A DNA stretch of 36,519 bases. Source: Paracoccaceae bacterium (GTDB taxonomy: Bacteria; Pseudomonadota; Alphaproteobacteria; Rhodobacterales; Rhodobacteraceae). Below, piece after piece: positions 710 through 20,691 of this stretch. The position numbers and the translations under genes were made by a program. The notes under the pieces are model-generated. The model ran no database searches and had not been told where the DNA came from. It saw only the letters and a list, made by a program, of their open reading frames with translations. The stretch lies in contig JACZKR010000199.1 in the NCBI GenBank assembly GCA_014859945.1, forward strand, positions 1 to 36,519, written 5' to 3'. Each line of letters begins with the position of its first letter. Positions within the stretch are counted from its first letter, which is position 1.

Positions 710-1405
710 TCAGGCCGGGGCCATGCCAGAACGGATGGCCTCGGCTGTGCGCAGGTAGTGGTCACGCAGCAAGGCTTCGGCCCGGGGCGTATCGCGGGCA
801 AGGACGGCATCGGCAATCGCGCCATGTTCGGCGTCGATGTCGCGCTTCTGCGGCCCGGCAGACAGCAGGGCGGGAATGCGGTATCGCTCTGTCGCCGCAT
901 AAAGCCGCTCAAAGAAATCCAGCAGCCAGTCCGATCCGCAGGCCGCCAGCAACGCGCGGTGGAAGGTGTGGTGACGCAGCTTCAGTTCATCCACATCGCC
1001 GCCCTGCCGCCGGGTCTGCAGCCGCAGCGCATAAAGCGCGGCAACCACCGAAGCCTCCCAGGCGTCATCGCCCTTCGCCATCGACTGGCGCAGCGCCTCG
1101 GTCTCGATCAGAAGGCGGGCCTGCAGCGCATCCTCGAACTCGGCCAGAGATTGGGCGGACACACGAAAGCCGCGCAGGGACTCGGCAGTGACAAGGCGCT
1201 CGGCCTGCAGCCGGTTCAGCGCCTCGCGCAGGGGCGAAAAACCCATGCCGTAGCGTTCGCTCAGGTCGGCAAGCCGCAGCGGGCTTTCCGGTGCAAAGCA
1301 GCCTTCGACGATGTCTTTCCGCAGGGAAACATAGGCTTTTTCGGCCAGGGTCATGATCGCGTCCTTGTCTGGCCGCAGCTTATCCAGCGCCGCTTCAACC
1401 TGCAA
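710..1405 (-). CDS. GntR family transcriptional regulator, FCD (FadR-type) C-terminal domain
   Basis: N-terminal wHTH 'AYVSLRKDIVEGCFAPESPLRLADLSERYGMGFSPLREALNRLQAERLV' and helical FCD-like C-terminus with 'RHHTFHRALLAACGSDWLLDFFERLY'. Start could also be 1354. Confidence 0.9.
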   Translation of the reverse strand: MQVEAALDKLRPDKDAIMTLAEKAYVSLRKDIVEGCFAPESPLRLADLSERYGMGFSPLREALNRLQAERLVTAESLRGFRVSAQSLAEFEDALQARLLIETEALRQSMAKGDDAWEASVVAALYALRLQTRRQGGDVDELKLRHHTFHRALLAACGSDWLLDFFERLYAATERYRIPALLSAGPQKRDIDAEHGAIADAVLARDTPRAEALLRDHYLRTAEAIRSGMAPA

Positions 1406-1409
1406 TTCT

Positions 1410-1443
1410 ATAATTTTCGAAGATTATTATTGTCATCGAAAAT
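1410..1443. promoter_or_regulatory. Candidate GntR operator: ATTTTCGA-N15-TCGAAAAT inverted repeat
   Basis: ATTTTCGA at 1413-1420 and TCGAAAAT at 1436-1443 form a perfect 8-bp inverted repeat in the AT-rich gap between divergent GntR and cupin genes. ATAATTTTCGAA (1410-1421) recurs as its reverse complement at 5229-5240. Confidence 0.6.
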
Positions 1444-1494
1444 ACTGACTGGCATAGTCCCCCCATCACCCCCGTCGAAAGAAGGAGTCGCCCC

Positions 1495-2616
1495 ATGGCC
1501 AATGGACGCGAGAACCACCGCGAAGACGTCATCGGCCGCGCCAATGTCGAAGATACGCCCGAGCTTCTGGCCTATTATGACCAGCTAGAAGGCTTTCACG
1601 CCGGCGCGCTCTGGACCGTTGCCAACAAGATCGAACCCTGGGCGCCCAAAAGCCAGTCGGTTCCCGTGGTCTGGCGCTATAAGGATCTGCGCGATCATGT
1701 GATCCGCTCGGTCGATCTGGTCACGCCGGAAAAGGCGGGGCGGCGGGTGATCTACCTGAACAACCCCGGGCGGCAGGATGTGGCGGCGGCGGTCGGCTGG
1801 GTTTACGCGGGGCTTCAGGTGATGAACCCGGGCGAGGTCGCGGGCGCGCACCGCCATTCAGCCAGCGCGATCCGCTTCATCATGGAAGGCCGCGGCGCCT
1901 ATACCGTGGTCGATGGCCACAAGATGACGCTGGGCGCGAACGATTTCGTGCTGACCCCCAACGGCACCTGGCATGAACATGGCGTCGCCGAAGACGGCGC
2001 GCTTTGCCTCTGGCAGGACGGGCTGGATATTCCCTTCGTCAACGCGATGGAGGCGAATTTCTATGAGGTTCACCCCGACCTCAATCAGGCCGTGGGCTAT
2101 GCCGTGGACGACATGACCAAGACCTGGGGCAATCCGGGCCTGACGCCCTATGGCGAAAGCTGGAAAAAGGGCTACAGCCCGATGTTCAAATACGAATGGG
2201 CGCCGACCTATGAGTCGCTGGGCAAATACGCCGGTTGCACGGCGGGCAGCCCGTTCGACGGCGTGCTGATGGAATACGTCAATCCGGTTACCAACGGCCC
2301 GGTGATGCAGACGCTGGGCGCTTCGATGCAGATGCTGCGCCCGGGCGAGGCGACGAAGGCCCATCGCCATACCGGCAGCTATCTTTACCACGTCGCCAAG
2401 GGGCGCGGCCATTCCATCATCAACGGCAAGCGGTTCGACTGGCAGGAACGCGACATCTTCTGCGTGCCCTCCTGGGCCTGGCATGAACATGTCAACGCCT
2501 CGGATCGTGAGGATGCGTGCCTCTTCTGCCTCAGCGATCTGCCGGTGATGCGCGCCCTTGGCCTCTATCGTGAAGAGGCATTCGGCGAAAACGGCGGCCA
2601 TCAGCCCCTGCTTTAA
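1495..2616 (+). CDS. Gentisate 1,2-dioxygenase-like bicupin ring-cleavage dioxygenase
   Basis: Two cupin motifs 'PGEVAGAHRHSASAIRFIMEGRGAYTVVDG' and 'PGEATKAHRHTGSYLYHVAKGRGHSIING', each followed by 'TWHEHG'/'AWHEHV'; length 373 aa is typical of the GDO/SDO family. Confidence 0.85.
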   Translation: MANGRENHREDVIGRANVEDTPELLAYYDQLEGFHAGALWTVANKIEPWAPKSQSVPVVWRYKDLRDHVIRSVDLVTPEKAGRRVIYLNNPGRQDVAAAVGWVYAGLQVMNPGEVAGAHRHSASAIRFIMEGRGAYTVVDGHKMTLGANDFVLTPNGTWHEHGVAEDGALCLWQDGLDIPFVNAMEANFYEVHPDLNQAVGYAVDDMTKTWGNPGLTPYGESWKKGYSPMFKYEWAPTYESLGKYAGCTAGSPFDGVLMEYVNPVTNGPVMQTLGASMQMLRPGEATKAHRHTGSYLYHVAKGRGHSIINGKRFDWQERDIFCVPSWAWHEHVNASDREDACLFCLSDLPVMRALGLYREEAFGENGGHQPLL

Positions 2617-2625
2617 GGACGGATT

Positions 2626-3549
2626 ATGAAACTTGTGACCTATCGCGCCTCGGTCGAGGCAGCGGCCCGGCTGGGCGTGCTTCATCAGGAACTTGTCGTC
2701 GATGTCGCCCGCCTGGGGGCTGATCATGGCGAAACCCTGCCCGATTCCATGCTGGGCCTGATCGACACGGGCCGCCCCGGCCTTGAAACCCTCCAGGCCT
2801 GCCTTGATCAGTCGAAGGGCCGCTTCCGGCCCGGCACGGCGACGGCACTGGCCAATGTGAAGCTTCTTGCGCCCATCCCGCGCCCGCGCAAGAACATCTT
2901 CGGCATCGGCCTGAACTATGTCGAACACGTCGCCGAAAGTGCGGCCTCGCTCGACACGTCCAAAGACCTGCCGAAACAGCCGGTGGTGTTTTCCAAGCCG
3001 CCGACCACTGTGATCGGCCCCGACGATGCGATTGAGCATGACAGCAGCATCACCCGGCAACTGGACTGGGAGGTCGAGCTTGCCGTGATCATCGGCACCA
3101 CCGCCCGCCGCATCCGCCGGGATCAGGCACTGGCCCATGTCTTCGGCTATTCGGTGATGATCGACGTTTCAGCCCGCGACAACCGCCGCGCCGGGCAATG
3201 GATCTTCTCCAAGGGGATGGACAGCTATGCTCCCTTCGGTCCGGTGATCGTCACCGCCGATGAAATCCCCGATCCGCAGTGCCTTGACCTCTGGCTGACC
3301 GTCAACGGCGTCGAAAAGCAGCGTTCCAACACCCGCCACATGCTCTTCAAGGTCGATCACCTGATCGCCGACATTTCGTCGGGCATCACGCTGGAACCCG
3401 GTGACATCATCGCTTCGGGCACACCAGAAGGCGTCGGCGCGGGCCGGACGCCGCAGGAATGGCTGCATCCGGGCGATGTGGTAGTGGGCCACGTCGAAGG
3501 CATCGGCACGCTGAGGAACCCGGTGGTAAACTCCACCCCCGAAGCCTGA
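2626..3549 (+). CDS. Fumarylacetoacetate hydrolase (FAH) family protein
   Basis: 'IFGIGLNYVEHVAES', 'PVVFSKPPTTVIGPDDAI', 'DWEVELAVIIG', 'FGYSVMIDVSARD', 'GDIIASGTPEGVGAG' are FAH-family signatures. Confidence 0.92.
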   Translation: MKLVTYRASVEAAARLGVLHQELVVDVARLGADHGETLPDSMLGLIDTGRPGLETLQACLDQSKGRFRPGTATALANVKLLAPIPRPRKNIFGIGLNYVEHVAESAASLDTSKDLPKQPVVFSKPPTTVIGPDDAIEHDSSITRQLDWEVELAVIIGTTARRIRRDQALAHVFGYSVMIDVSARDNRRAGQWIFSKGMDSYAPFGPVIVTADEIPDPQCLDLWLTVNGVEKQRSNTRHMLFKVDHLIADISSGITLEPGDIIASGTPEGVGAGRTPQEWLHPGDVVVGHVEGIGTLRNPVVNSTPEA

Positions 3550-3586
3550 GCCCCCATCCTCTCTCTGAAAAATTTCCCACGGGGGT

Positions 3587-3607
3587 CCGGGGGTGTGAAA
3601 CCCCCGG
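3587..3607. repeat. GC-rich hairpin CCGGGGG-TGTGAAA-CCCCCGG in the FAH/nitrilase gap
   Basis: 7-bp perfect stem, 7-nt loop, preceded by 'GAAAAATTTCCCACGGGGGT'. Resembles dispersed GC-rich intergenic hairpins of Rhodobacteraceae. Confidence 0.4.
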
Positions 3608-3634
3608 CGCTTTCAACCGAAAGGACCGCCTGCC

Positions 3635-4564
3635 ATGTCCACCCCCTTCACCGCCGCTGTCGTGCAGATGGCCTCGCTTCCCGACGATCCGCTGGCCACC
3701 GCCGAAAAGGCTGCCGCCCGCCTGCGTGAGGCAGCGGCCCGCGGCGCAAAGCTCGCGGTTTTCCCCGAAGCGCTGATCGGCGGCTACCCCAAGGGCGCCA
3801 GTTTCGGCGCCCCGATCGGGATGCGCAAACCCGAAGGCCGCGCGGCCTTCGCGCGTTATCACGCCGCCGCTATCGACCTTGACGGACCCGAAGTTGCCCT
3901 GCTGGCCGAAGCGACGGCCGAGACCGGCATCTTCGCCGTTGTGGGCGTGATCGAACGCGATGGCGCCACGCTTTATTGCACGGTGCTTTACTTCGACGGC
4001 GAGAAGGGCCTTGTCGGCAAGCACCGCAAGCTGATGCCCACGGCGGGCGAACGGCTGATCTGGGGTTTCGGCGACGGCTCTACCATGCCCGCTTTCAAGA
4101 CTGCTCTCGGCACCATCGGCGCGGTGATCTGCTGGGAAAACTACATGCCGGCGCTGCGGATGCACATGTATCATCAGGGCGTCAGCCTCTATTGCGCCCC
4201 CACCGCCGATGACCGCGACACCTGGCTGCCTACCATGCAGCACATAGCACTGGAGGGCCGCACCTTCGTTCTGACCGCCTGCCAGCACATCACCCGCGCC
4301 GCCTACGGCCCCGACCATGAAAGCGCGCTGGGCGATGAACCTGACCGCGTGATGATGCGCGGCGGGTCGGCGATCATCTCGCCCTTGGGCCGGGTTCTGG
4401 CCGGGCCGGATTTCAGCGGCGAAACAATCCTTTATGCTGAGATCGACCCCGATGAGGTCATGCGCGCCAAGTTCGATTTCGACGTGACCGGCCATTACGC
4501 CCGGCCCGATGTCTTTGAGATCCGTGTGGACACGCGCCCCAAATCCGCGGTGCGAGAGGTCTGA
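3635..4564 (+). CDS. Carbon-nitrogen hydrolase, nitrilase (branch 1)-type
   Basis: Glu-Lys-Cys triad motifs 'LAVFPEALIGGYPKG', 'VGKHRKLMPTAGE', 'IGAVICWENYMPALRM'; the CWENYMP context is typical of true nitrilases. Confidence 0.88.
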   Translation: MSTPFTAAVVQMASLPDDPLATAEKAAARLREAAARGAKLAVFPEALIGGYPKGASFGAPIGMRKPEGRAAFARYHAAAIDLDGPEVALLAEATAETGIFAVVGVIERDGATLYCTVLYFDGEKGLVGKHRKLMPTAGERLIWGFGDGSTMPAFKTALGTIGAVICWENYMPALRMHMYHQGVSLYCAPTADDRDTWLPTMQHIALEGRTFVLTACQHITRAAYGPDHESALGDEPDRVMMRGGSAIISPLGRVLAGPDFSGETILYAEIDPDEVMRAKFDFDVTGHYARPDVFEIRVDTRPKSAVREV

Positions 4565-5196
4565 TGCGCTACGATCTGGATCAGGTTCCCCAGCCCATCG
4601 CCTACAAGCTTCTGGCCGCAACGGTCATTCCAAGGCCCATCGCCTGGGTGGTGACGCAGGGGAAGGATGGCCTCAACGCCGCGCCCTATTCCTTCTTCAA
4701 CGTCATGGGCTCGGCGCCGCCCACCATCGCGCTGGGTCTGATGGCGGCCCCGGACCGGGGCTTCAAGGACACCGCGCTGAACATCCTGGAAACCGGCGAG
4801 TTCGTGGTGAATCTGGTGCCCGAACGGCTGGTGCAGGCGATGAACCTGACCGCCGCCGATGCGCCGCGCGGGGTGGATGAGCTGCAGCTGGCCGGATTGG
4901 CCACGCTGCCCTCAACCCACGTTACCCCGCCGCGCATTGCCGAAAGTCCGGTCGCCTTCGAATGCCGCGTGCTGTCCTCGGTGGTGACCGGGCCTTGTCA
5001 GACGGTGGTGATCGGGCGGGTGCTGTCGGTCCATATCGAGGACCGCTATCTGCTGAATGCCGACCGCGCCCATATCGACACCGACGCGCTGGACCTTGTC
5101 GCGCGCAGCTTCGGCTCGGAATACATTCGCAGCCATGACCGGTTCGAGCTTGCCCGCCCCACCTGGGCCGGGCTGAACGCCGCAGGAAAGCCCTGA
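4564..5196 (+). CDS. Flavin reductase (DIM6/NTAB-like FMN-binding split barrel) family protein
   Basis: 'ATVIPRPIAWVVTQGKDGLNAAPYSFFNVMGSAPPTIALGL' N-terminal motif; ATG overlaps the nitrilase stop codon. Confidence 0.85.
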   Translation: MRYDLDQVPQPIAYKLLAATVIPRPIAWVVTQGKDGLNAAPYSFFNVMGSAPPTIALGLMAAPDRGFKDTALNILETGEFVVNLVPERLVQAMNLTAADAPRGVDELQLAGLATLPSTHVTPPRIAESPVAFECRVLSSVVTGPCQTVVIGRVLSVHIEDRYLLNADRAHIDTDALDLVARSFGSEYIRSHDRFELARPTWAGLNAAGKP

Positions 5197-5207
5197 TTTC
5201 CCGATAG

Positions 5208-5240
5208 ATAATCGAAAGTCGTACGATTTTCGAAAATTAT
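5208..5240. promoter_or_regulatory. Candidate operator shared with 1410-1443 (ATTTTCGAAAAT palindrome plus upstream TCGAAA)
   Basis: ATTTTCGAAAAT (5226-5237) is a perfect 12-bp palindrome; TTCGAAAATTAT (5229-5240) is the reverse complement of ATAATTTTCGAA (1410-1421); TTGACA follows at 5242-5247. Confidence 0.6.
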
Positions 5241-5326
5241 GTTGACAGGGTTAAGTGCCGCGCTGAAACTTAACTCACAAGTAAAGAAATTCGCGAAACT
5301 GCGAATCGTCAACATGGGATTTCGAA

Positions 5327-6379
5327 ATGCTTCAGGAGCGGGTCGAAGGAAAATGGCTAGCCGCGTTCCGGCGGGTGCTGGCCTTGAACGGGATCGGCAA
5401 GGGCACGCCCATCGCCATCCTGTCGGAAACGCAATCCCGGCCGGTGCTGGTGCATCTGTGTGAACTGGCAGCCTATGACCTTGGCGCCGACTTCTGCATG
5501 ATCCAGATGCCGACGCCGGCCCAGACGGCGCCGGTTCCGGTGAAATCCACCGGCACAAGCTGGGCCATCCAGGGCAACCGCGCGGTGATCGAGGCGCTGA
5601 AGCGCGTCGATGTGATCGTGGACTGCACCGTGGAAGGCCTGATCCACGCCCCCGAATGGCCCGAGATCGAAGAGGCCGGGCGCACGCGCCTTCTGGTCAT
5701 CACCAACGAACACCCCGAGATTCTGGAACGGACCGAGCCCAAGGCCGAACACGGGCCGAAGGTGCAGCTGGGCATCCAGATGCTGCGCGAAGCCTCGGAA
5801 ATGCGGGTCACCTCGGCCCTTGGCACCGACCTGACGGTCAACCTGCGCGGCGCCCCTTGCGGCGGCACGGCCGGCTTTGGCACCACGCCCGGCTCGGTCG
5901 CGCATTGGCCGGGTGGATTGTGCCTGGCCTTCCCGGGTCAGAACGCGGTCAACGGCCGCATCGTGATGGGGGTCGGTGACATGAACCTGACCTTCAAGAC
6001 CTATCTGACCAGCCAGATCGACTTCACCATCGAGAACGACTTCGTCACCGCCATCAAGGGCGACGGCATCGATGCGCTCCACTTCCGCGAATACATGGAA
6101 GCCTGGGACGACCGGAACGCCTACGGCTTCAGCCATGTCGGTTGGGGCATGCACCCCGGCGCCCGCTGGGTTTCGGCTGCCATGTACGACAAGCGCGACA
6201 TGCAGGCGGTCGAGTTCCGGGCGCTTGCCGGTTCGTTCCTGTGGTCGACCGGCGCCAACCAGTATGCCGGGCGCTACACGCTCGGCCATTTCGACCTTCC
6301 CATGCGCAACTGCACCATCGCCCTCGACGGGCGCGTCGTCGTGCGTGACGGCGTCCTGCAAGGAGACCTCGCCCTATGA
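5327..6379 (+). CDS. NicX-like 2,5-dihydroxypyridine 5,6-dioxygenase family (M29 aminopeptidase-like fold)
   Basis: Length 350 aa. Collinear with recalled NicX motifs: 'HWPGGLCLAFPGQ..NGRIVMGVGDMNLTFKTY', 'YGFSHVGWGMHPGARW', 'GSFLWSTGANQ', 'GHFDLPMRNCTIALD'; candidate Fe-ligand His/His/Asp retained. Confidence 0.82.
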   Translation: MLQERVEGKWLAAFRRVLALNGIGKGTPIAILSETQSRPVLVHLCELAAYDLGADFCMIQMPTPAQTAPVPVKSTGTSWAIQGNRAVIEALKRVDVIVDCTVEGLIHAPEWPEIEEAGRTRLLVITNEHPEILERTEPKAEHGPKVQLGIQMLREASEMRVTSALGTDLTVNLRGAPCGGTAGFGTTPGSVAHWPGGLCLAFPGQNAVNGRIVMGVGDMNLTFKTYLTSQIDFTIENDFVTAIKGDGIDALHFREYMEAWDDRNAYGFSHVGWGMHPGARWVSAAMYDKRDMQAVEFRALAGSFLWSTGANQYAGRYTLGHFDLPMRNCTIALDGRVVVRDGVLQGDLAL

Positions 6380-7719
6380 ACGTCCAGACCCCCTCTGCCA
6401 CCGTCATGCCGATGAGCAGCCCGGCCGACTATTACGACATGACCCGCGTCCGCCCCGAGGTCGCCGCCGCCATGGCGAAGATCAACGAATTGGGTCCGCT
6501 TTTCGCCGCGCGCGCCAAGGCGGTGGATGACGAGGCGTCCTTCCCGACGGCGAACTACAAGGATCTGGCCGATGCGGGCTTCCTCGGCCTGTCGATCCCG
6601 CAGGAATTCGGCGGCTGGGGCTTTTCGATGGGCGAATACGCCATGGTCGGGGCCGAGATCGCCAAGTACTGCGGCGCGACCGCGCTGACCTTCAACATGC
6701 ACAATTCGTCCATGGCCTGGTCGCGCTTCATGTTCGACATGCCGAACCTGACCGCCGAGGAGAAGGCCGAGTTCGCCCCCCTGCGCGCGCGCCAGTTCAC
6801 CCGGGCGATGAAGGAACGCGCGATCTACTCGCAGCCGATTTCGGAAGGCGGGCAGAACTGGACCTCGAAACCGAACCAGACCCAGTGCCGCGCCACCGAA
6901 GGCGGCTGGAAGATCAACGGGTTCAAGAAGTTCGCCAGCCTTGCGGGCTATTGCGACTATTACACCATCGTCTGCACCGAGGTCTTCGAAGGTATCGAGC
7001 CGCGGCATGAGGACACCATGCTGTTCGTCGTCCACAAGGACGCGCCGGGCCTGACCGTCAAGGGCGACTGGGACCCTCTGGGCATGCGGGGCACCAACAG
7101 CCGCGACCTGATCCTGAAGGATGTCTTCGTCACGGCCGATGACCTGCTGATGCCGCGCGGCATCTTCGGCAAGACGCTGCCCAACTGGCCGCACATGATG
7201 GCCACCCTGTCGCCCACCTACATGGGGGTTGCCCAGGGCGCCTATGATTTCACCATTGCCTATCTGAAGGGCAAGGTTCCGGGCCAGCCGCCGATCGACC
7301 GGCGCATGTATGCGACCAAGCGCGTGGCGATTTCAAAGATGTATGCCCGCCTTGCCAACATGCGGGCGCTGTGGTGGCAGGCTTTCTCGGAAGCCAAGGG
7401 CATGCCGTCCAAGGCCGAAGTGATGCGGATGTATGCCGCGCAGTACAACGTGATGGAGGGCGTGCAGGAAATCACCGCGCTGGCCATCCGCACCTGTGGC
7501 GGCCAGTCGATGCTGAAATCCCTGCCGCTGGAGCGGATGTACCGCGACAGCCGCTGCGGTGCGCTGATGCTGCCCTACACCTCTGAAATCATGGAGGACT
7601 ATATCGGCCTTCTCTCGCTTTATGAGATGGACGAACTGGACAGCGCGCCGGGCGACGAAGGCGGGGCGCGCAGCTCGCTCTGGCGCGGCGATGCCGGCAG
7701 CCTGCGGGGCCTGCGCTGA
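6376..7719 (+). CDS. Acyl-CoA dehydrogenase-fold flavoprotein, possibly a group D-type monooxygenase component
   Basis: 'LADAGFLGLSIPQEFGGWGFS', 'KINGFKKFASLAGYCDYYTIVC', 'DPLGMRGTNSRDLILKDVFV', 'TCGGQSMLKSLPLERMYRDSRCG'; starts inside the nicX-like stop codon (ATGA). Confidence 0.85.
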   Translation: MNVQTPSATVMPMSSPADYYDMTRVRPEVAAAMAKINELGPLFAARAKAVDDEASFPTANYKDLADAGFLGLSIPQEFGGWGFSMGEYAMVGAEIAKYCGATALTFNMHNSSMAWSRFMFDMPNLTAEEKAEFAPLRARQFTRAMKERAIYSQPISEGGQNWTSKPNQTQCRATEGGWKINGFKKFASLAGYCDYYTIVCTEVFEGIEPRHEDTMLFVVHKDAPGLTVKGDWDPLGMRGTNSRDLILKDVFVTADDLLMPRGIFGKTLPNWPHMMATLSPTYMGVAQGAYDFTIAYLKGKVPGQPPIDRRMYATKRVAISKMYARLANMRALWWQAFSEAKGMPSKAEVMRMYAAQYNVMEGVQEITALAIRTCGGQSMLKSLPLERMYRDSRCGALMLPYTSEIMEDYIGLLSLYEMDELDSAPGDEGGARSSLWRGDAGSLRGLR

Positions 7720-9005
7720 TGGGCCGCGACGTCGTTCAGGTTCAGGGCCATCTGCCCCATGCGCCGGACGACGTCTGGCAGACCTTGCGCGATTTCTGCG
7801 GTGTCTGGCATCCGTGGATCGCGACCATGCGGGAAGAACGCGGCCCGGGCGGCGCCCGCATCCGCGCCTTCACCGTGACGGGAGAGGACACGCTTTACCG
7901 CGAGCAGCAGACCTATCTTTCCGACAGCGACCGGGTGCTGGGATACACCCATCTTCAGGGGATCAGGGAATGTGAGGCCTATGACGCCCGCGTCACCGTG
8001 ACCCCTGCCGAAACCGGCGGTTGCCACGTCGGCTGGACGGCCCGGGTCAAGGCGCCTGCCGGCAGGCTGCGTCAGATCTGCGACGGCACGCGCGCGGTGT
8101 TCGAGGCGGGCATCGCAGCCCTGGCACAGCTTCCGGCGCGGGCGCCGGAGCCGAGGGCGGCCCTGCCGGCGCCTGTGGCGGTCGAGACGCTGATCTTTGA
8201 CGACCTTCCGCGTCTGGCGCTGAGCGTGACACCAGAGCGCGGCGACGACCGGCTGTGCCTGTTCCTGCACGGCATCGGCGGCGCGCGGACGAACTGGCTG
8301 GATCAGTTGCAGGCCGTGGGCGGCACGATCCGCGCCGCCGCGCTGGACCTGCGCGGCTATGGCGACAGCAGCCTGGGCGCCCGGCAATCAACGGTCGATG
8401 ACTATTGCGCGGACATCCTGCGGGTGGCCGCGCGGCTGGGCGCGCGGCGGCTGGTGCTGGTGGGCCTGTCCTACGGGTCGTGGATCGCCACGTCCTTTGC
8501 CATGCATCACCCCGAGATGCTGGATGCCCTTGTCCTGTCGGGCGGCTGCACCGGCATGTCCGAAGCCGGCCCCGATGAACGCGAGGCCTTCCGTCTTAGC
8601 CGCGAGGTGCCGCTGAACGCCGGTCAGGTGCCGGCCGATTTCGCTCCCGCAGTGGTCAAGGTGCTGGCCAGCCCCGGCGCTGGCGAAGCGGTCCGCCAAC
8701 GGCTTTATGACAGCATGGCGGCAATTCCCGCCGCGACCTACCGCGATGCGCTGAACTGCTTCACCAATCCGCTTGAGCGCTTTGACTTTTCCCGCCTGAC
8801 CATGCCGGTCCTGCTGATGACGGGTGAGCATGACCGGCTGGCCCCGCCGGCCGAAATCCGTGGCGTTGCCGGGCGCATCTGGGACGCCGCGCCGCGCCCC
8901 GATGTCCGGTTTGAGGTGATCGCGGGCGCGGGCCATGTCTGCAACATCGAAGCGCCCGAAACCTTCTCACGCCACCTTCTGGACCTGATCGGCCGCCTGC
9001 CATGA
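7719..9005 (+). CDS. SRPBCC (START-like) domain fused to alpha/beta hydrolase
   Basis: Residues ~1-140 SRPBCC-like ('VQVQGHLPHAPDDVWQTLRDFCGVWHPWIATMREERGPGGARIRAFTV'); C-terminal alpha/beta hydrolase with 'LFLHGIGGARTNW', nucleophile elbow 'GLSYG', 'TGEHDRLAPP', 'AGHVCNIEAPE'. Confidence 0.85.
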   Translation: MGRDVVQVQGHLPHAPDDVWQTLRDFCGVWHPWIATMREERGPGGARIRAFTVTGEDTLYREQQTYLSDSDRVLGYTHLQGIRECEAYDARVTVTPAETGGCHVGWTARVKAPAGRLRQICDGTRAVFEAGIAALAQLPARAPEPRAALPAPVAVETLIFDDLPRLALSVTPERGDDRLCLFLHGIGGARTNWLDQLQAVGGTIRAAALDLRGYGDSSLGARQSTVDDYCADILRVAARLGARRLVLVGLSYGSWIATSFAMHHPEMLDALVLSGGCTGMSEAGPDEREAFRLSREVPLNAGQVPADFAPAVVKVLASPGAGEAVRQRLYDSMAAIPAATYRDALNCFTNPLERFDFSRLTMPVLLMTGEHDRLAPPAEIRGVAGRIWDAAPRPDVRFEVIAGAGHVCNIEAPETFSRHLLDLIGRLP

Positions 9006-9688
9006 CCAAACTGCCCCGCCGCGAACAGAACCGCCTGAACCGTGAGCGCCAGATTCTGGACGCCGCGCTGAAGATCTTCGGTGCGACCGGCTATACCGGC
9101 GCCACGATGGATGCCGTCGCGGCCGAGGCCGGGGTGACGAAGCCCACGCTTTATTCCTACTTCCCGTCGAAAGAGTCGCTTTTCCAGGCGATGATGCTGG
9201 GCAAGCGCGACCTGATGCTGGATGTGTTCGAACATCCTTCCAAGGCGGGCATGGTCGCGGATCTTCTGGTTTTCGCCTGGGCCTATGCCGATACGGTCAT
9301 GCGGCCAGAAATGCTGTCGCTGGCCCGTCTGATCATCGGCGAGGTGCAGCGTTTCCCGGAGATCGGCCGGGCCTATCAGGCCAGCGGTCCCGATCACCTT
9401 CTGCGGGGGATCATGCGCTATCTGGAAGGGCAGCGCCGTGCCGGGCGGCTGGCATTCGACGATGCCGAACTGGCCGCGCAGGACCTGTGGGGCCTGATCC
9501 TGTCGGCGCCGCGGACCCAGGCGCTTTACATGCCCGATGCCCTTCCCGACCGGGCCACGCTTGAACGCTATATCCTGAATGGTCTGCGGGTCTTTCTGAA
9601 GGCCTACTCGACCACGCCAGCGCCCGATCTTGAACAACTTGAAGCGCTTAAAGGCGCCCCTTCCCAACAGGTGAACCATGACGCTTGA
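9002..9688 (+). CDS. TetR/AcrR family transcriptional regulator
   Basis: 'ILDAALKIFGATGYTGATMDAVAAEAGVTKPTLYSYFPSKESLFQAMM' HTH signature. Confidence 0.93.
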   Translation: MTKLPRREQNRLNRERQILDAALKIFGATGYTGATMDAVAAEAGVTKPTLYSYFPSKESLFQAMMLGKRDLMLDVFEHPSKAGMVADLLVFAWAYADTVMRPEMLSLARLIIGEVQRFPEIGRAYQASGPDHLLRGIMRYLEGQRRAGRLAFDDAELAAQDLWGLILSAPRTQALYMPDALPDRATLERYILNGLRVFLKAYSTTPAPDLEQLEALKGAPSQQVNHDA

Positions 9689-11018
9689 CGACTTCCTCGC
9701 CGACCCCGGCAGCCGATTTGCCACGGTCGCGATGACGGATACCAACGGCCTTCTGCGCGGTCAGATGGTTTCGGCCCGCAGCCTGAAGGGCGTGGCCAAG
9801 GCCGGCATGGGCATGGCCCCGGCGCAGCTGGCGCTGGACCCGACCGACGTGCATCTGAACCTGCCGGGCGTGAATGACGACTCGGGCGACTTCCACGACG
9901 ATCCGCTGGTCCTTGATCCGGCCAGCGTCCGCCGCCTGCCGTGGTCGAAGCCGGGTCATGACCTTCTGGTGCTGTCGAACTTTACCGGCCAGTCCGGGGA
10001 GCTTTGCCCGCGCTCGATCCTGTCAAAGGTTCTGGCCCGGGCGGCCGAGGCCGGGTTCTTCCCGAAATACGGGATGGAGCTGGAATACACCCTGTTCGAT
10101 GAAACGCCGGAAAGCGCCAAGGCCAAGGGTTATCGCCATCTCAAGCCCGCGACGCTGCATGCCAGCCATGACCTGATCATCTATCAGGCGGTTCAGACCG
10201 AATGGTATGAGGCGCTGGCCGCGATCTGCGAGCCGCTGAAGATCGACCTTGCTAAGATGCACGAGGAAATCGGCGCGGGCTTCATGGAATGCTGCATCGG
10301 CGCGGGTGAGGGGCTGGAACCCGCTGACCAGCTGGTGCTGCTGAAGAACTTCCTGCGGGCGCTGGCCCTGCGACAGGGCAAATCGGTCACCTTCATGCCG
10401 CGCTGGAACGAAGAGGCCGACAGCCAATCGATCCACCTGCACATGAGCCTGAAGGACAAGGCCGGAACCCCGCTGTTCTGGGACGCCAGCCAGAAGAACG
10501 GGGTCAGCCAGCTGTTCCGCTGGTTCTTGGGCGGGCTGCAGGCCTACATCGGCGACATGACCCTGGTCTTCCAGCCCACGGTCAACAGCTATCGCCGCTT
10601 TGCGCCGGGCACCTTCGCGCCGCCCGGGCTGACCTGGGGGTATGAGAACCGCACCACCTGCTTCCGGCTTGTGGGCCATGATCCGGGGTCGCTGCGGGTG
10701 GAAAACCGCCTGCCGGGCGCCGATACCAACCCCTACCTGACCGCCGCTGCCACCCTTGCGGCCGGGATCGCCGGCATCCTTGGCAAGGTCGAACCCGAGC
10801 CCGAGGTCATCGGTTCGGGCTATGCGCAGGCCCCGTCGCGGGACTTTGCCCGCTCGATGCCCGAGGCGATCAGCCGGTTGCGCGGGTCGGCTTTCGCCCG
10901 CGACTGGCTGGGCGACCGCTTCGTCGACGGCTTCACCGCCACCCGCGAAAGCCAGCATGACGAATTCCGCCGCCGGGTTCCCGATGTGGAACTGCAGCGC
11001 TTCTTCGATCTGGGTTAG
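9678..11018 (+). CDS. Glutamine synthetase family protein (gamma-glutamyl ligase-like, PuuA/GlnT-type)
   Basis: 'GMELEYTLFD', 'HEEIGAGFMECCI', 'VTFMPRWNEEADSQSIHLHMSL', 'NSYRRFAPGTFAPPGLTWGYENRTTCFRLVG', 'RVENRLPGADTNPYLTAAATLAAG'. Confidence 0.9.
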   Translation: MTLDDFLADPGSRFATVAMTDTNGLLRGQMVSARSLKGVAKAGMGMAPAQLALDPTDVHLNLPGVNDDSGDFHDDPLVLDPASVRRLPWSKPGHDLLVLSNFTGQSGELCPRSILSKVLARAAEAGFFPKYGMELEYTLFDETPESAKAKGYRHLKPATLHASHDLIIYQAVQTEWYEALAAICEPLKIDLAKMHEEIGAGFMECCIGAGEGLEPADQLVLLKNFLRALALRQGKSVTFMPRWNEEADSQSIHLHMSLKDKAGTPLFWDASQKNGVSQLFRWFLGGLQAYIGDMTLVFQPTVNSYRRFAPGTFAPPGLTWGYENRTTCFRLVGHDPGSLRVENRLPGADTNPYLTAAATLAAGIAGILGKVEPEPEVIGSGYAQAPSRDFARSMPEAISRLRGSAFARDWLGDRFVDGFTATRESQHDEFRRRVPDVELQRFFDLG

Positions 11019-11021
11019 GCC

Positions 11022-11531
11022 ATGGATCTGCGCGCCGCATTCCTTGAAGGCATGAGCCGGGCCGCAACCTTCGTCGCGGTCGCCACGACCGACGGTGAGG
11101 GCGGGCGTTTCGGTGTCACCGTCTCGTCGCTGACCTCGGTTTCGGCCGACGGCGATCACCCCTCGCTTCTGCTGTGTATCCACCATCTGTCGCCGGTGGG
11201 GGCCGCGATCCTGAAGAACCGGTATTTCTGTGCCAATCTTCTGGCCGAACCTCAGCAGGATGTGGCGAACCTCTTCGCGGGGCGCGGCGGTTCGGGCGAC
11301 CACGCCGACCGTTTCACCCGCGCCGCATGGCAGCCGGGCGAACATGGTCAGCCCCTTCTGGCCGGCGCCACCGCCACTTTCGAATGCCGTCTGGCGACGG
11401 CGCTTCTGTGGGAGACCCATCACATCATTGTCGGCCGCGCCACCTCGGTGCGGCTGTCGGACAATTCCTCGGCGCTGCTCTACGGGCAGCGCGCCTACCG
11501 CAAGGCCATCCACCTGACGACTGACACCTGA
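11022..11531 (+). CDS. Flavin reductase family protein (second copy)
   Basis: 'GMSRAATFVAVATTDGEGGRFGVTVSSLTSVSADGDHPSLLLCIHHLSPVGAAILKNRYFCANLLAE'; typical two-component oxygenase reductase. Confidence 0.88.
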   Translation: MDLRAAFLEGMSRAATFVAVATTDGEGGRFGVTVSSLTSVSADGDHPSLLLCIHHLSPVGAAILKNRYFCANLLAEPQQDVANLFAGRGGSGDHADRFTRAAWQPGEHGQPLLAGATATFECRLATALLWETHHIIVGRATSVRLSDNSSALLYGQRAYRKAIHLTTDT

Positions 11532-11611
11532 AAGCTGACCCCGCGGCCACTCCGGCCGCGACAACCGCATTCCGGCACCAAGACCGGACTCTGCGCAACA
11601 CGGAGGGACGC

Positions 11612-13060
11612 ATGTCTGACACTACCGGAATCGGAACCAACAGGCTTCGACGCAATTCGCTGGGGCTTGTCGCCGTCACCTTCATGGTGATCTCGGCCGC
11701 CGCTCCGCTGACGGGGGTCGCTGGCGCCATGCCGCTGGCCTTCCTCCTGGGCAACGGCACGGGCGTGCCGCTGACCTTCATCCTTCTGACGCTGGTCATG
11801 CTGGCCTTCGCCGCCGGCTATGTCGCGATGAGCCGCCATGTGATCAATGCCGGCGCCTTCTACGCCTATGCCGCGCGCGGCCTTGGCGGCAACGCGGGCG
11901 GGGCCGTCGCCCTGATCGCGCTGGTGGCCTACAACGCCATGCAGTTCGGCCTGATCGGACTTCTGGGCGGGATATCCGCCGGGGTCTTCAGCCAGTTCGG
12001 TCTGACGCTGGACTGGTGGGTTTACAGCCTGATCGCCGTCGTTCTGGTCGGGATTCTGGGCTATCGTCAGGTCGATCTGTCGGCCAAGGTGATGGTGGTT
12101 CTGGTCGGCCTTGAATACCTGATCGTGCTGATCGTCGACTTCGCCATCCTCGGGTCGGGCGGGGCCGAAGGTTCGGGGCTTGCCGTCAACATCTTCGACG
12201 TCTCGGCCCTGACATCGGGTTCGCTGACGGCCGCGGTGCTGTTCTGCCTTGGCTCGTTCATCGGCATCGAGGCGACGACGATCTACGGTGAAGAGGCCCG
12301 TGACCCCGAGCGTACGATCCCGCGCGCGACTTATCTGTCGATCCTGATGATCGGCGTCTTCTTCGTCTTCACCACCTGGCTGATGATCGCCGGCACCGGT
12401 GCCGACAAGCTGATTGAAACCATCGGCGGCCTGCCCGACCCGACGATCCACTTCTTCGTTCTGGCCGAAACCTACACCAATCCGACCGTTTCGATGATTG
12501 CCGGTCTCTTGCTGGTCTCCAGCCTTTTCGCCGCACTTTCGGCCTTCCACAACTACATCGCCCGCTATTCCTATGTCGCGGGCCGCGACGGACTGCTGCC
12601 GGCGGCTTTCGGCCGGACCCATGACGCGCACCAAAGCCCGCATATCGGCTCGGTCGTGCAGACCATCGGCGCGCTGATCGTTCTGGCCGTCTTTGCCGGG
12701 CTGGGTCTGGACCCGATCCTGAACATGTTCACCTGGGTCAGCCAGGTCGGCACGCTGGGCGTGATCGGGATGATGGCCATCACCTCGCTGTCGGTGATCG
12801 TGTTCTTCACGAAGAAGGGCGGGGGTTCGGCGCTGTCAACCCTGATCCTGCCCACCATCGCAGGGCTGATCATGCTGGCGCTGTTCGTCTATATCTTCGT
12901 GAACTACGGCGATCTGACCGGCACCACCGGCGGCGGGCTGAGCGTGATCCTGCCTTCGCTGATCCCGGCGGGCGGTGTTCTTGGCCTTCTGCTGGCCCGG
13001 CGGCTGAATGCGGTGGACCCGGCGCGCTTTACCCGGATGGGAACCACGCTGCCCGACTGA
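11612..13060 (+). CDS. APC family amino acid/amine permease
   Basis: Multiple hydrophobic helices; 'SAAAPLTGVAGAMPLAFLLGNGTGVPLTFIL' and 'FIGIEATTIYGEEARDPERTIPRATYLSI'. Confidence 0.92.
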   Translation: MSDTTGIGTNRLRRNSLGLVAVTFMVISAAAPLTGVAGAMPLAFLLGNGTGVPLTFILLTLVMLAFAAGYVAMSRHVINAGAFYAYAARGLGGNAGGAVALIALVAYNAMQFGLIGLLGGISAGVFSQFGLTLDWWVYSLIAVVLVGILGYRQVDLSAKVMVVLVGLEYLIVLIVDFAILGSGGAEGSGLAVNIFDVSALTSGSLTAAVLFCLGSFIGIEATTIYGEEARDPERTIPRATYLSILMIGVFFVFTTWLMIAGTGADKLIETIGGLPDPTIHFFVLAETYTNPTVSMIAGLLLVSSLFAALSAFHNYIARYSYVAGRDGLLPAAFGRTHDAHQSPHIGSVVQTIGALIVLAVFAGLGLDPILNMFTWVSQVGTLGVIGMMAITSLSVIVFFTKKGGGSALSTLILPTIAGLIMLALFVYIFVNYGDLTGTTGGGLSVILPSLIPAGGVLGLLLARRLNAVDPARFTRMGTTLPD

Positions 13061-13075
13061 CCCTGGGGGAAACGA

Positions 13076-13109
13076 CAAGGCCGGCCGGACGCAAGTCCGG
13101 CCGGCCTTG
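13076..13109. terminator. Bidirectional hairpin terminator between convergent operons
   Basis: CAAGGCCGGCCGGAC-GCAA-GTCCGGCCGGCCTTG: perfect 15-bp stem with GCAA tetraloop, in the gap between two converging stop codons. Confidence 0.8.
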
Positions 13110-13129
13110 CCTTGTTCAGGCAAACCGCT

Positions 13130-13372
13130 TTAGCCGCCCTTCAGCGCCTGCAGCAGGAAGATCTCGGCATCCGGCGCGATGGTGGCGTGACGGTTCGGCA
13201 TGACTTCACCGTTCACCACCACCGAAACGCCGCCCTTCAGAATCGGCTCCAGCCCCGGATGCAGGGCGACAAGCGCCTGCAAGGCTTCGGCGATGGTTGC
13301 AGCCTGCACCTCGACCACGCGGGCACCATCGGTGAACCGCGCAAGGCTGGACCACAGGTTGACCGCAACCAT
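13130..13372 (-). CDS. MoaD/ThiS-like ubiquitin-fold sulfur carrier protein
   Basis: 80 aa; 'VNLWSSLARFTDGARVVEVQAATIAEALQALVALHPGLEPIL...VVVNGEV' and C-terminal di-glycine 'LQALKGG'. Confidence 0.8.
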   Translation of the reverse strand: MVAVNLWSSLARFTDGARVVEVQAATIAEALQALVALHPGLEPILKGGVSVVVNGEVMPNRHATIAPDAEIFLLQALKGG

Positions 13373-13378
13373 CCTGCC

Positions 13379-15622
13379 TCAGCCCTTCGTCTTCATCGCC
13401 GCAAGGATCTTGGGAGGCGTCATCGGCAGATGGCGCAGCCGGACGCCTGTTGCCGCGTGGATTGCATTGGCAATCGCCGGCAGGGGCGGGGTGATGCCGG
13501 TTTCGCCCACGCCGCGCACGCCATAGGGATGGCCGGGGTTCGGCACCTCGACAATCACCGTATCAATCGGCGGCAGGTCCGAGGCGACGGGAATCCGGTA
13601 GTCCAGGAAGACCGTGTTCTGCAACCGGCCGTCCTTGCCGTAGATGTATTCCTCGTTCAGCGCCCAGCCGATGCCCTGCGCCGCGCCGCCCTGATACTGG
13701 CCTTCCACATAAGCGGGGTGAATGGCCCGACCGGCATCCTGCACCACCAGATAGCGCAGAACCGTCGTGCGCCCCGTTTCGGGGTCCACCTCGACATCGA
13801 CGACATGGGCACCGAAGCTGGCGCCAAAGCCATCCGGCACCGATTCATGGTGGCCCGAGATCGGGCCGCCGGTGCCGCCCATCTTGGAGGCGATCTCGGC
13901 GATGCTCATGGGCGGGAACTTGCCGGCGTTGGGCCCGGCCGGCTGCGCCGCGCCCTGCACCCATTCGACAGCCTCGGGTTCGATCCCCCATTCGGCGGCA
14001 GCGCGGTTGCACATCTCGCGGATGGCGGCCTCGGCGGCGATCACGGCGGCCTTGCCGCTGGCAAAAGTGGCGCGGCTGCCATGCGTCGGTTCGTTCACGC
14101 CAAGCGCGCCGGTTTCGACGATGTTCACCCGCACATCCTCATAGCGGATGCCCAGCGTCTCGGCCGTCATCAGCGCGATGGACGCGCGGCTGCCGCCGAT
14201 GTCCGGCGTGCCGACCGAAACCGTCGCCGTGCCATCCTCGCCGATGGCCAGCGTGACCGAGGTTTCGCCGGCATGGTTGAACCAGAAGCCCGATGCGATG
14301 CCGCGCCCCTGATTAGGCCCCAGCGGCACCGCCAGATTGGGATGCGCGGCGGTGGCTTCCAGCGTCTCGATCAGCCCGATCGAGCCGAAGGTGGCGCCGT
14401 AGCTGGCGGTGTCCCCCTCACGCACGGCGTTCTTCAGCCGCACCGCCATGGGGTCCAGCCCCAGTTCACGGCACATCTCGTCAATCAGGCTTTCCACCGC
14501 AAAGGCGCCCATGGGCGAGCCGGGGGCACGGTAGGCCGCGCATTTCGGCCGGTTGGCCAGCACGTCATAGCCGATGTGCTGAAGCGCCGGGATGGCATAG
14601 GGCGCGAAGGCGCAGTACAGCCCCTCGGCCACCGGCGAGCCGGGGAAGGCGCCGCCCTGCATGCGGAACTCGGCCCGGCCGGCGGTGATCGTGCCGTCCT
14701 TCTTCATGCCGATCTTCACATCCATCGAGGCCGAGGCTGTCGGCCCCGTCGCCCGCAGCACCTCGGACCGGCTCATGACAATCTTGACCGGCCGGCCGCC
14801 TGCCTTGCGCGACAGCGCCAGCGACAGGGGCTCCATGAAGATCGTGGTCTTGCCGCCGAAGCCGCCGCCGATCTCGGAGGGGGTCACGCGCAGCTGTGCG
14901 GCCTCAAGCCCCAGAACGGCGCTGCACATCTTGCGGATATACCACTGACCCTGGGTGCAGACCCACATCTCGCCCTTGCCGTCCGCGCCAAGCTGGCCGA
15001 CGCAGGCATGCGGCTCGATATAGCCCTGATGGGTGGCTTCGGTCTTGTAGGTCTGTTCGCGCACCAGATCGGCCGCGGCAAAGCCTGCGTCGATATCGCC
15101 GCGCCCGAAGTCCAGATAGCGCACCACATTCGGCGGCATCCCCGGGGGGACCGAGGCATCGGCCGCACCTTCGCGGATTACCGGGGCGTCGGGACGGATC
15201 GCGTCATCGACGTCGATCACATGGGGCAGCACCTCATAGGTCACCTCGACCAGCCGCGCCGCCTCTTCCGCCAGAAGGCGTGAGGTGGCAGCCACGGCGG
15301 CCACCGCATGACCGTCATACAGCGCCTTTTCCCCGGCAAGGGTGTTTTCCTGAAGGTTCCAGTCTTCGCCCGTCAGGCCGGTGGGCAGGTCGGCGCGCGT
15401 GACCACGGCCTTCACCCCGTCCAGCGCCAGCGCCTTCGACGCGTCGATCTTCACGATCTTCGCATGGGCATGCGGCGAACGCACCACGGCGCCCCACAGC
15501 ATCCCCGGCAGGGTGGCATCGGCGCCATAGCGGGCGCGGCCCGTCACCTTGTCCAGCCCGTCGGGCCGGTTGGGGCGGGTGCCGACAAGACGGAATTCGG
15601 CCTTCAACTCATCCTTCGGCAT
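13379..15622 (-). CDS. Xanthine dehydrogenase-family molybdopterin-binding large subunit
   Basis: 'TGRARYGADATLPGMLWGAVVRSPHAHAKI', 'GGGFGGKTTIFMEPLSLALSRK', 'AAYRAPGSPMGAFAVESLIDEM', 'GVRGVGETGITPPLPAIANAI' (catalytic Glu region). Confidence 0.93.
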   Translation of the reverse strand: MPKDELKAEFRLVGTRPNRPDGLDKVTGRARYGADATLPGMLWGAVVRSPHAHAKIVKIDASKALALDGVKAVVTRADLPTGLTGEDWNLQENTLAGEKALYDGHAVAAVAATSRLLAEEAARLVEVTYEVLPHVIDVDDAIRPDAPVIREGAADASVPPGMPPNVVRYLDFGRGDIDAGFAAADLVREQTYKTEATHQGYIEPHACVGQLGADGKGEMWVCTQGQWYIRKMCSAVLGLEAAQLRVTPSEIGGGFGGKTTIFMEPLSLALSRKAGGRPVKIVMSRSEVLRATGPTASASMDVKIGMKKDGTITAGRAEFRMQGGAFPGSPVAEGLYCAFAPYAIPALQHIGYDVLANRPKCAAYRAPGSPMGAFAVESLIDEMCRELGLDPMAVRLKNAVREGDTASYGATFGSIGLIETLEATAAHPNLAVPLGPNQGRGIASGFWFNHAGETSVTLAIGEDGTATVSVGTPDIGGSRASIALMTAETLGIRYEDVRVNIVETGALGVNEPTHGSRATFASGKAAVIAAEAAIREMCNRAAAEWGIEPEAVEWVQGAAQPAGPNAGKFPPMSIAEIASKMGGTGGPISGHHESVPDGFGASFGAHVVDVEVDPETGRTTVLRYLVVQDAGRAIHPAYVEGQYQGGAAQGIGWALNEEYIYGKDGRLQNTVFLDYRIPVASDLPPIDTVIVEVPNPGHPYGVRGVGETGITPPLPAIANAIHAATGVRLRHLPMTPPKILAAMKTKG

Positions 15623-16101
15623 CAGGCGGCTCCTCTCATTTCGGCGGCGGCATCCTGCACCGCGCGGATGATCTTGTCATAACCCGTGCAGCGGCAGAGG
15701 TTCCCGGCCAGCCAGTAGCGGATTTCGGTATCGGTCGGGTTGGCGTTCTTTTCCAGAAGCGCCTTCGCCGCCACCAGAATGCCCGGCGTGCAGAAGCCGC
15801 ATTGCAGGGCGGCATGTTCGATGAACTTGCGCTGCAGCGGGTGCAGTTCGCCCCCTGTCGCCATTCCTTCGATGGTTTCGACCGTGCGGCCCTGCGCTTC
15901 AACCCCCAGCACAAGGCAGGAACAGACCAGCGTGCCGTCCAGCCGCACCGAACAGGCGCCGCAATCGCCGGTGCCGCAGCCTTCCTTGGAACCGGTCAGC
16001 CCGACATGGTCGCGCAGGCAGTCCAGCAGCGTCTCGCGCGGGTCGGCAAGAAACTCGACCGTATCGCCGTTGACGGTGGTGGTGACGTGTATCCTGCTCA
16101 T
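15622..16101 (-). CDS. (2Fe-2S)-binding small subunit of molybdenum hydroxylase
   Basis: 'GCGTGDCGACSVRLDG' and 'QCGFCTPGILV...GNLCRCTGYDKI' two-cluster motifs. Confidence 0.95.
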   Translation of the reverse strand: MSRIHVTTTVNGDTVEFLADPRETLLDCLRDHVGLTGSKEGCGTGDCGACSVRLDGTLVCSCLVLGVEAQGRTVETIEGMATGGELHPLQRKFIEHAALQCGFCTPGILVAAKALLEKNANPTDTEIRYWLAGNLCRCTGYDKIIRAVQDAAAEMRGAA

Positions 16102-16964
16102 TGCTTGCCTCCCCGGGCGCGGTCATAGGCGATCCTGGCGGCGCGTCTTGCCAGAACGCCGGCCACTTCGGTGCGGAACGCGATGGTGCCGCGCTTGTCG
16201 TCGATCGGGCTGCAGGCGGCTTCGGCGGCCTTGGTCAGGGCTGCCAGCGCCGCATCGTCCAGCGCCGTGCCGATGATGGCCTTCGCCGCATCCGGCACAA
16301 GGCGCACGGTCGGCGCCACCGCCCCCAGCACCACGCGGGCGGCGGTGATCGTGGCGCCTTCGACCGTCAGGCTGACAGCGCAGCCCACCACGGCAATATC
16401 CATCTCGGTGCGCGGGATGAAACGCAGATAGGCGTCGCCCCCATGGGCACCCCGCGGCGGCAGCAGCAGGGCCGAGATCACTTCCCCCTTGGTCAACGAG
16501 GTGCGGCCCGGCCCGGTGGGAATATCCTCAACCGCGACGGTCCGCTTGCCCGTCGGACCGGTGATTTCCGCCACGGCGCCGGCCGCGACCAGACCCGGCA
16601 CCGAATCTGCTGCCGGCGAGCCGTTGCACAGGTTGCCGGTCAGCGTCGCGCGTCCCTGCACCTGGGTCGAGCCCACCAGCTCCATCCCCTCGACCACGCC
16701 CGGCCAGTCGGCCTTCAGCCCGGCATGGGCGCCCAGCTGCGCGCCGGCAACCGCCACGCCGATCCGCCAGCCCTCGTCGGCAGTGCGGGAAATCTCGGCG
16801 GTGCCGGGAATTTTCTTGATGTCGATCAGGTCGTCGGGCCGGACCATGGCGGCGCGCAGCTGCACCAGAACATCGGTCCCTCCGGCCAGAAATCGGGTCA
16901 CCCCCGGCGCCTGCGCGGCAAGCTGCGCGGCCTCCTCGAAGGTTTGTGGGGCGTGATAGCGCAT
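16098..16964 (-). CDS. FAD-binding medium subunit of molybdenum hydroxylase
   Basis: 'MRYHAPQTFEEAAQLAAQAPGVTRFLAGGTDVLVQLR', 'RATLTGNLCNGSPAADSVPGLVA'; overlaps the small-subunit start. Confidence 0.93.
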   Translation of the reverse strand: MRYHAPQTFEEAAQLAAQAPGVTRFLAGGTDVLVQLRAAMVRPDDLIDIKKIPGTAEISRTADEGWRIGVAVAGAQLGAHAGLKADWPGVVEGMELVGSTQVQGRATLTGNLCNGSPAADSVPGLVAAGAVAEITGPTGKRTVAVEDIPTGPGRTSLTKGEVISALLLPPRGAHGGDAYLRFIPRTEMDIAVVGCAVSLTVEGATITAARVVLGAVAPTVRLVPDAAKAIIGTALDDAALAALTKAAEAACSPIDDKRGTIAFRTEVAGVLARRAARIAYDRARGGKQ

Positions 16965-19665: not shown

Positions 19666-19687
19666 GTTCGCTCTTCTCTGCCGCCGC

Positions 19688-20590: not shown

Positions 20591-20691
20591 CGGTTGTCCT
20601 TTCCTGCATCGGGCACCCGGGGCCGCAGCCATGGTGCCGGACTTGCGAACGAGTCGCATACAGAAATAGCGGGCGCCCGGCGCAATGCAAG

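Follow-up and report, generated by a model that had tools for sequence, protein, structure and literature searches.

The stretch of DNA analysed here (36,519 bp; hereafter the window) is one entire contig of a Paracoccaceae assembly that consists of 494 contigs and is 86% complete. The genes under study are listed in Table 1. Open reading frames, strands and overlaps are as described in an earlier note on this sequence (neighbouring genes share 4 bases at 6376/6379 and 9002/9005, and 1 base at 4564 and 7719), and the domain assignments made there were borne out by comparison with Pfam, NCBIfam and PDB. Two features go beyond that description: an SRPBCC (Polyketide_cyc2) domain at the N terminus of the alpha/beta hydrolase, and a ThiS/MoaD-like gene at the end of the Mo hydroxylase unit. 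The genes of the gentisate-1,2-dioxygenase-like bicupin (GDO), the FAH-family hydrolase, the nitrilase-superfamily enzyme and the flavin reductase FR210 constitute unit 1; those of the NicX-like dioxygenase (NicX'), the ACAD-type monooxygenase (ACAD'), the SRPBCC-alpha/beta-hydrolase (ABH'), the TetR regulator, the GS-like ligase, the flavin reductase FR169 and the permease constitute unit 2. The view that the locus is a catabolic island for N-containing aromatic compounds was supported. Its description as an island of twelve genes was upheld in part: when about 100 other loci were compared, units 1 and 2 emerged as two recurrent modules, to which the molybdenum (Mo) hydroxylase is unrelated.

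Table 1. Genes of the cluster and adjoining genes, with positions in the window
Feature	Position	Strand	Evidence and remarks
GntR/FCD regulator	710..1405	-	Pfam GntR + FCD; divergent from unit 1; homologs adjoin GDO at other unit 1 loci
Gentisate-1,2-dioxygenase-like bicupin (GDO)	1495..2616	+	3bu7 (annotated GDO) E=1e-166; proposed ring cleavage of 5-hydroxyanthranilate or gentisate
FAH-family hydrolase	2626..3549	+	PF01557 1e-69; proposed maleamoylpyruvate/maleylpyruvate hydrolase
Nitrilase-superfamily enzyme (CN_hydrolase), NIT4-like	3635..4564	+	PDB 6i00 NIT4 E=5e-106; proposed maleamate amidase
Flavin-reductase-like protein FR210	4564..5196	+	PF01613
NicX-like non-heme Fe dioxygenase (NicX')	5327..6379	+	PDB 7cn3 E=1e-55
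ACAD-fold flavin monooxygenase-like protein (ACAD')	6376..7719	+	Pfam ACAD domains
SRPBCC + alpha/beta hydrolase fusion (ABH')	7719..9005	+	PF10604 + PF00561; proposed N-formyl hydrolase
TetR regulator	9002..9688	+	PF00440 + PF14246
Glutamine-synthetase-like (GS-like) ligase	9678..11018	+	PF00120 3e-80; proposed gamma-glutamylation of amine
Flavin reductase FR169 (RutF/IacG-like)	11022..11531	+	PF01613 1.5e-31; proposed ACAD' partner
APC permease	11612..13060	+	PF13520
ThiS/MoaD-like protein, 80 aa	13130..13372	-	4th gene of Mo hydroxylase operon
Mo hydroxylase FAD/FeS/Mo subunits	16964..13379	-	Outside the system

Recurrence and coupling of the two units

The SRPBCC-hydrolase was searched for in 249 genomes of the family, in plasmids and in GTDB genomes, which located unit 2 at 37 other loci with its gene order retained. 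The succession NicX'-ACAD'-ABH' is present in 34 of these (the remaining three are cut by contig ends), and ACAD' adjoins NicX' at every locus not interrupted by a contig end. The TetR, GS-like, flavin reductase and APC permease genes come next in most loci; the permease is exchanged for TctABC-type genes in some and for a Pot-type ABC transporter in one. The SRPBCC and hydrolase domains are encoded by two separate adjacent ORFs at L063:8759-10188, and separate matches were also obtained in a further genome (G192, locus L062); the fusion is therefore optional. Ensifer carries unit 2 alone, without unit 1. Homoprotocatechuate (hpa) meta-cleavage genes adjoin unit 2 at two loci (L049:2-5597 and L055:2-5794), and hydantoinase A/B genes (oxoprolinase-like), perhaps for lactam opening, lie near NicX' at L066:13563-17356, where they flank an ORF for an FAD oxidoreductase.

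Nine loci of Rhodobacteraceae and Rhizobiales (the window and eight others) have unit 1 fused to unit 2 in one and the same order. One of them is on plasmid pAA02 of Aminobacter aminovorans KCTC 2477, which carries both units without the Mo hydroxylase. The count also includes a locus with a decayed unit 1 (L034:5891-7480), in which the GntR gene is kept, GDO and FR210 persist as fragments, the FAH and nitrilase genes are lost, and unit 2 is intact. Such recurrence of unit 2, and of units 1 and 2 together, in fixed order is far beyond chance. A GDO of at least 83% identity is accompanied by unit 2 in five of six genomes (window left out), as against about 6% overall, and in two of those five (G034 and G235) GDO and unit 2 are both present yet unlinked. 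The functional link between the units assumed in the earlier note is thus supported by fused loci and by co-occurrence even in the unlinked state.

Among 26 loci with a GDO unit, nine carry unit 2, eight carry anthraniloyl-CoA/isatin-type genes (anthraniloyl-CoA, thioesterase, RidA, indolepyruvate-oxidoreductase and isatin-hydrolase-like genes were counted), and none carries both. This is most simply explained if unit 2 takes the place of those genes in supplying the GDO unit with the same intermediate. The two units could instead be separate pathways that are merely co-located, with unit 2 degrading some N-heteroaromatic amine to end products of its own and unit 1 serving several routes as a general cleavage system for gentisate or 5-hydroxyanthranilate. 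Each unit has its own regulator, most genomes with unit 2 lack a close GDO, and unit 1 stands alone in 17 of the 26 GDO loci, all of which would fit this explanation; however, the conserved order of the fused loci in Rhodobacteraceae and Rhizobiales, the joint presence of unlinked units, and the mutual replacement of unit 2 and anthraniloyl-CoA genes at the GDO unit argue against it, and we consider it somewhat unlikely.

The Mo hydroxylase adjoins unit 2 at none of the 37 other loci. Its relatives (69–87% identity) form a stand-alone operon of four genes, with that of the ThiS/MoaD-like protein as the conserved fourth, in changing and unrelated neighbourhoods. It is therefore not a member of the island, contrary to the earlier claim, and is ruled out as the first step of the pathway. 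The window also contains a Mn/Zn-type ABC transporter (17091-20809) and the bhcD-A genes of the beta-hydroxyaspartate cycle (20769-25296). On pAA02, bhcA and bhcB lie at a distance of about 8 kb from the cluster, whereas none of the other fused loci seen has such genes nearby; a link to this glyoxylate-related cycle was considered and set aside.

Predicted functions of the unit 2 enzymes

NicX' is 36–39% identical to canonical NicX proteins and belongs to the same family; its fold follows from full-length similarity to 7cn3, and it is paired with an alpha/beta hydrolase, as in nic clusters. According to the crystal structure of NicX, the iron is bound by H265, S302, H318 and D320, and the substrate is contacted by E177 and H189; E177 binds the pyridine lactam at N1 and O1, and the E177A/H189A double mutant is inactive (PMC7910607). 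In an alignment of 51 sequences (32 window-type, 15 sister-type, 4 canonical), the Fe ligands of NicX' (H270, S307, H321, D323) are invariant throughout, as is H189, and R293 is common to NicX' and canonical NicX. The pair of substrate contacts is broken at E177, which is retained in the four canonical proteins, replaced by T in 32 of 32 window-type sequences (T181 in the window), and replaced by G or V in all 15 sister-type sequences. Because the residue that contacts the lactam is replaced, NicX' is predicted to act on a substrate other than 2,5-dihydroxypyridine. This compound, and hence a nicotinate or hydroxypyridine pathway, is unlikely by this criterion, and the earlier equation of NicX-family membership with dihydroxypyridine opening probably does not hold here. 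A small residue at the E177 position would make room for a fused benzene ring.

The earlier note had pointed to a pyridine route, in which the Mo hydroxylase would hydroxylate a pyridine and NicX' and the hydrolase would open the ring as in the nic and pic pathways. Such a route agrees with the family membership of NicX' and with the neighbouring Mo hydroxylase, but the loss of E177 in both clades, the lack of linkage to the Mo hydroxylase elsewhere, and the absence of NicC, NicF and NicE, all carried by canonical nic clusters, render it very improbable. A NicF-type isochorismatase amidase and NicE are located beside NicX in the canonical loci (L090-L093) and not at the window cluster, which has an ACAD-type monooxygenase instead. 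The lack of a NicF-like amidase and a maleate isomerase had been recognized before; both are absent here, and no NicE-like maleate isomerase was found in any of the six genomes with both units (that of the window and five others). The canonical nic/pic pathway was ruled out by the E177 change together with the missing genes, and a reading of the locus as a homarine operon was dropped for want of support.

The catalytic residues S251, D372 and H406 of ABH' are conserved in 46 sequences from both clades. ACAD' combines an ACAD fold with a flavin-reductase partner (FR169) and no ETF in the cluster, as is characteristic of group D enzymes, and is predicted to be a group D-type flavin monooxygenase with ACAD fold. 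FR169 is 37% identical to an IacG-like reductase of Sagittula. IacA was rejected as the nearest kin of ACAD' (no BLAST match at 1e-3 to the Sagittula IacA-like protein), and the genes neighbouring an ACAD relative in Dolichospermum (44%) were uninformative.

The GS-like ligase scores below every NCBIfam cut-off for GS types. It resembles the gamma-glutamyl amine ligases IpuC and AtdA1 in being a GS-fold protein encoded in a catabolic cluster, but is only about 31% identical to IpuC, and unit 2 lacks a gamma-glutamyl hydrolase. Relatives with 55–57% identity form GS-GATase-P450 sets (L095, L096, L124). A GS-P450-GATase set also lies upstream of NicX' at L067, a flavin amine oxidase gene immediately behind ABH' at L066, and an aromatic amino acid decarboxylase gene in the same run as the hpa genes beside unit 2 at L049. 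Together with the ligase and its relatives, these genes point to an amine-bearing substrate. On the Sagittula stellata plasmid (L124, 4.3-32 kb), the GS-GATase-P450 set is located between a tryptophan/anthranilate operon (tryptophan 2,3-dioxygenase [TDO], KynU, CoA ligase) and an iac-like set for indole-3-acetate (IAA), where it possibly provides a gamma-glutamyl route for tryptamine.

AtdA1 and TdnQ make gamma-glutamyl anilide. In an aniline-type amine route, the GS-like ligase would do likewise, ACAD' would hydroxylate the carbocycle, and NicX' would open an aminophenol-type ring. The occurrence of GS relatives with GATase and P450 and the recurrence of amine-handling genes near the core are in keeping with this explanation; however, several NicX'-ACAD'-ABH' loci lack the ligase, as do the sister sets examined, where a CoA ligase takes its place, and unit 2 has no Rieske dioxygenase, which makes the aniline-type route distinctly unlikely.

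Anthranilate-related context of the sister clade and unit 1

The sister-clade NicX homologs (51–58% identity) are found in other alphaproteobacterial families, in sets of NicX, ABH, ACAD and CoA ligase genes without the GS-like gene and the SRPBCC domain; a flavin reductase gene is close by in L130, L134 and L141. In L134, L140 and L141, the set adjoins an operon encoding an FAD-monooxygenase/OYE fusion, an SDR, an enoyl-CoA hydratase and other proteins, and in L141 both form a single continuous run. The architecture of the fusion is that known for 2-aminobenzoyl-CoA monooxygenase/reductase. The fusion is present in 16 of 21 sister-clade genomes and 11 of 59 others (p=4e-6, phylogeny uncorrected; p=8e-4 for genomes of at least 3.5 Mb only, relatedness uncorrected). 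In Sagittula, the operon with the fusion also carries TDO and kynureninase genes, so that anthranilate appears to be its natural substrate.

A similar association exists for unit 2. Among Rhodobacteraceae, aminobenzoate-CoA ligase is encoded in 12 of 16 genomes with unit 2 and in 71 of 233 others (p=5e-4, phylogeny uncorrected), and the window's own genome has a copy on another contig (C90). In Shinella, aminobenzoate-CoA ligase, TDO and kynureninase genes are located near unit 2. The comparative context, with 2-aminobenzoyl-CoA operons, TDO, kynureninase and isatin-hydrolase-like genes, points to anthranilate and indole rather than to the nicotinate or picolinate setting considered before. 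The fusion and ligase genes of the aerobic 2-aminobenzoyl-CoA pathway (PMC4539516) adjoin the NicX sets of the sister clade as well as related units with GDO but are not in the window.

The GDO of the window scores 301 bits against the NCBIfam equivalog gentisate_1_2, below the cut-off of 442. It is 61% identical to the GDO of R. pomeroyi (3bu7) and is paired with an FAH hydrolase, as in the gentisate pathway, but is only 38–39% identical to enzymes annotated as gtdA; unlike in that pathway, it is linked to a nitrilase and FR210, and related loci contain 2-aminobenzoyl-CoA genes. Gentisate may also be its substrate, since the solved homolog is annotated as gentisate dioxygenase. The FAH gene is present in 24 of the 26 GDO-unit loci. 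The nitrilase has the intact Glu-Lys-Cys triad of its superfamily (E45-K132-C166), and its clade tracks GDO across genomes, although it is missing from eight of the 26 loci. With the nitrilase-type CWEN motif retained and NIT4 as its nearest homolog, the enzyme can be called a maleamate amidase only as a guess.

Locus L105 encodes a full series of enzymes, namely a monooxygenase/OYE fusion, a thioesterase, RidA, aminobenzoate-CoA ligase, GDO, FAH, a nitrilase (90% identical to that of the window) and FR210; here, hydroxylation of anthraniloyl-CoA at C5 and subsequent release of CoA would yield 5-hydroxyanthranilate. Two further GDO units (L107, L029) occur with isatin-hydrolase-like and indolepyruvate oxidoreductase genes. 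All three are candidate gene sets for anthranilate or isatin degradation via 5-hydroxyanthranilate. The R. pomeroyi-type set ends with an Asp/Glu racemase-family protein that is 67–70% identical to the NicE-like proteins of canonical nic clusters. Of the 26 loci, 16 have FR210 and five the NicE-like maleate isomerase, and no GDO-FAH locus has both; FR210 may stand in for the isomerase at this step, or it may be a marker of one subclade of GDO.

A proposed indole-type route

We tentatively propose, with slightly less than an even chance of being correct, that units 1 and 2 form one catabolic route for an N-heteroaromatic compound, most likely an indole-type one that bears an amino group or a side chain. 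Its substrates and products, like the role of the GS-like ligase, are what we infer from the gene content, active sites and comparative context described above. From 2,5-dihydroxypyridine, NicX forms an N-formyl acid by splitting the C5(OH)-C6(H)-N bond pattern, and NicD then removes the formyl group. By analogy, the C3(OH)-C2(H)-N pattern of indoxyl would be the same in a bicyclic substrate that leads, via N-formylanthranilate, to anthranilate. ACAD-fold flavin monooxygenases with a flavin reductase are known to oxygenate indoles (IacA, IdoA), and N-formylanthranilate was put forward as an intermediate of indole degradation in 1953 (PMC6221969).

In this route, the APC permease would import the indole-type substrate, and ACAD' with its flavin reductase would hydroxylate the ring carbon beside CH-N to give a 3-hydroxyindole. 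NicX' would then split the C2-C3 bond (C-OH/HC-N), forming an N-formyl anthranilate, and ABH' would take off formate to yield an anthranilate. GDO would cleave a 5-hydroxyanthranilate between C1(COOH) and C2(NH2); the resulting maleamoylpyruvate would be an amide, which would explain a nitrilase-family enzyme beside FAH. FAH would split this product into pyruvate and maleamate, the nitrilase-family enzyme would deaminate the latter, and the GS-like ligase would handle the amine of the substrate through gamma-glutamylation. The end products are probably common metabolites. The two ring-opening chemistries seen as an unusual combination in the earlier note are indeed present, but need not be rivals, as one can feed the other.

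The signs of an amine, together with a pre-existing 5-hydroxyl, suggest a serotonin-like substrate. In its most specific form, which we regard as unlikely, the proposal is that 3-hydroxyindoles have their pyrrole ring opened by the NicX' clade, with N-formylanthranilates as products, and that in the window a 5-hydroxyindole amine of the serotonin type would be converted to 5-hydroxyanthranilate and, via GDO, to pyruvate and a C4 amide. Several points weigh against the indole-type route. Plain indole does not account for the GS-like, APC and SRPBCC parts. An indole substituted at C3 cannot be turned into indoxyl directly; the side chain needs prior removal or accommodation, which no gene explains. 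Four genomes with unit 2 (G056, G124, G146, G147) have neither aminobenzoate-CoA ligase nor the GDO clade, and the genomes with both units lack a maleate isomerase.

The iif/ind pathways for indole and the iac and iad pathways for IAA (PMC6221969, PMC12633357) share a two-component flavin oxygenase with the cluster, and anthranilate is the end product of iif and iad, as proposed here. The window differs in lacking IifA, IacC-E and Rieske enzymes, and NicX-type ring opening is foreign to all of these pathways. The literature searched contained no indoxyl-cleaving NicX homolog, no combination of 5-hydroxyanthranilate and maleamate, and no characterised cluster with a matching gene set, in agreement with the earlier claim of an undescribed enzyme combination; the breakdown route of the island is probably undescribed.

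If the proposal is true, the NicX family would comprise N-heterocycle openers rather than enzymes for one substrate, and the E177 position would be the residue that predicts which member does what. It would also provide genes for indole degradation via N-formylanthranilate and for the gentisate-type branch of anthranilate degradation, both without genes in PMC6221969 and PMC4539516; those of the latter branch were still unknown in a 2018 review (PMC6221969). The analysis defines a conserved catabolic module of NicX-like dioxygenase, ACAD-type monooxygenase and alpha/beta hydrolase in two versions, which is distributed among many alphaproteobacterial families and one gammaproteobacterial MAG and whose proteins are named "peptidase M29, acyl-CoA dehydrogenase, alpha/beta hydrolase" in databases.
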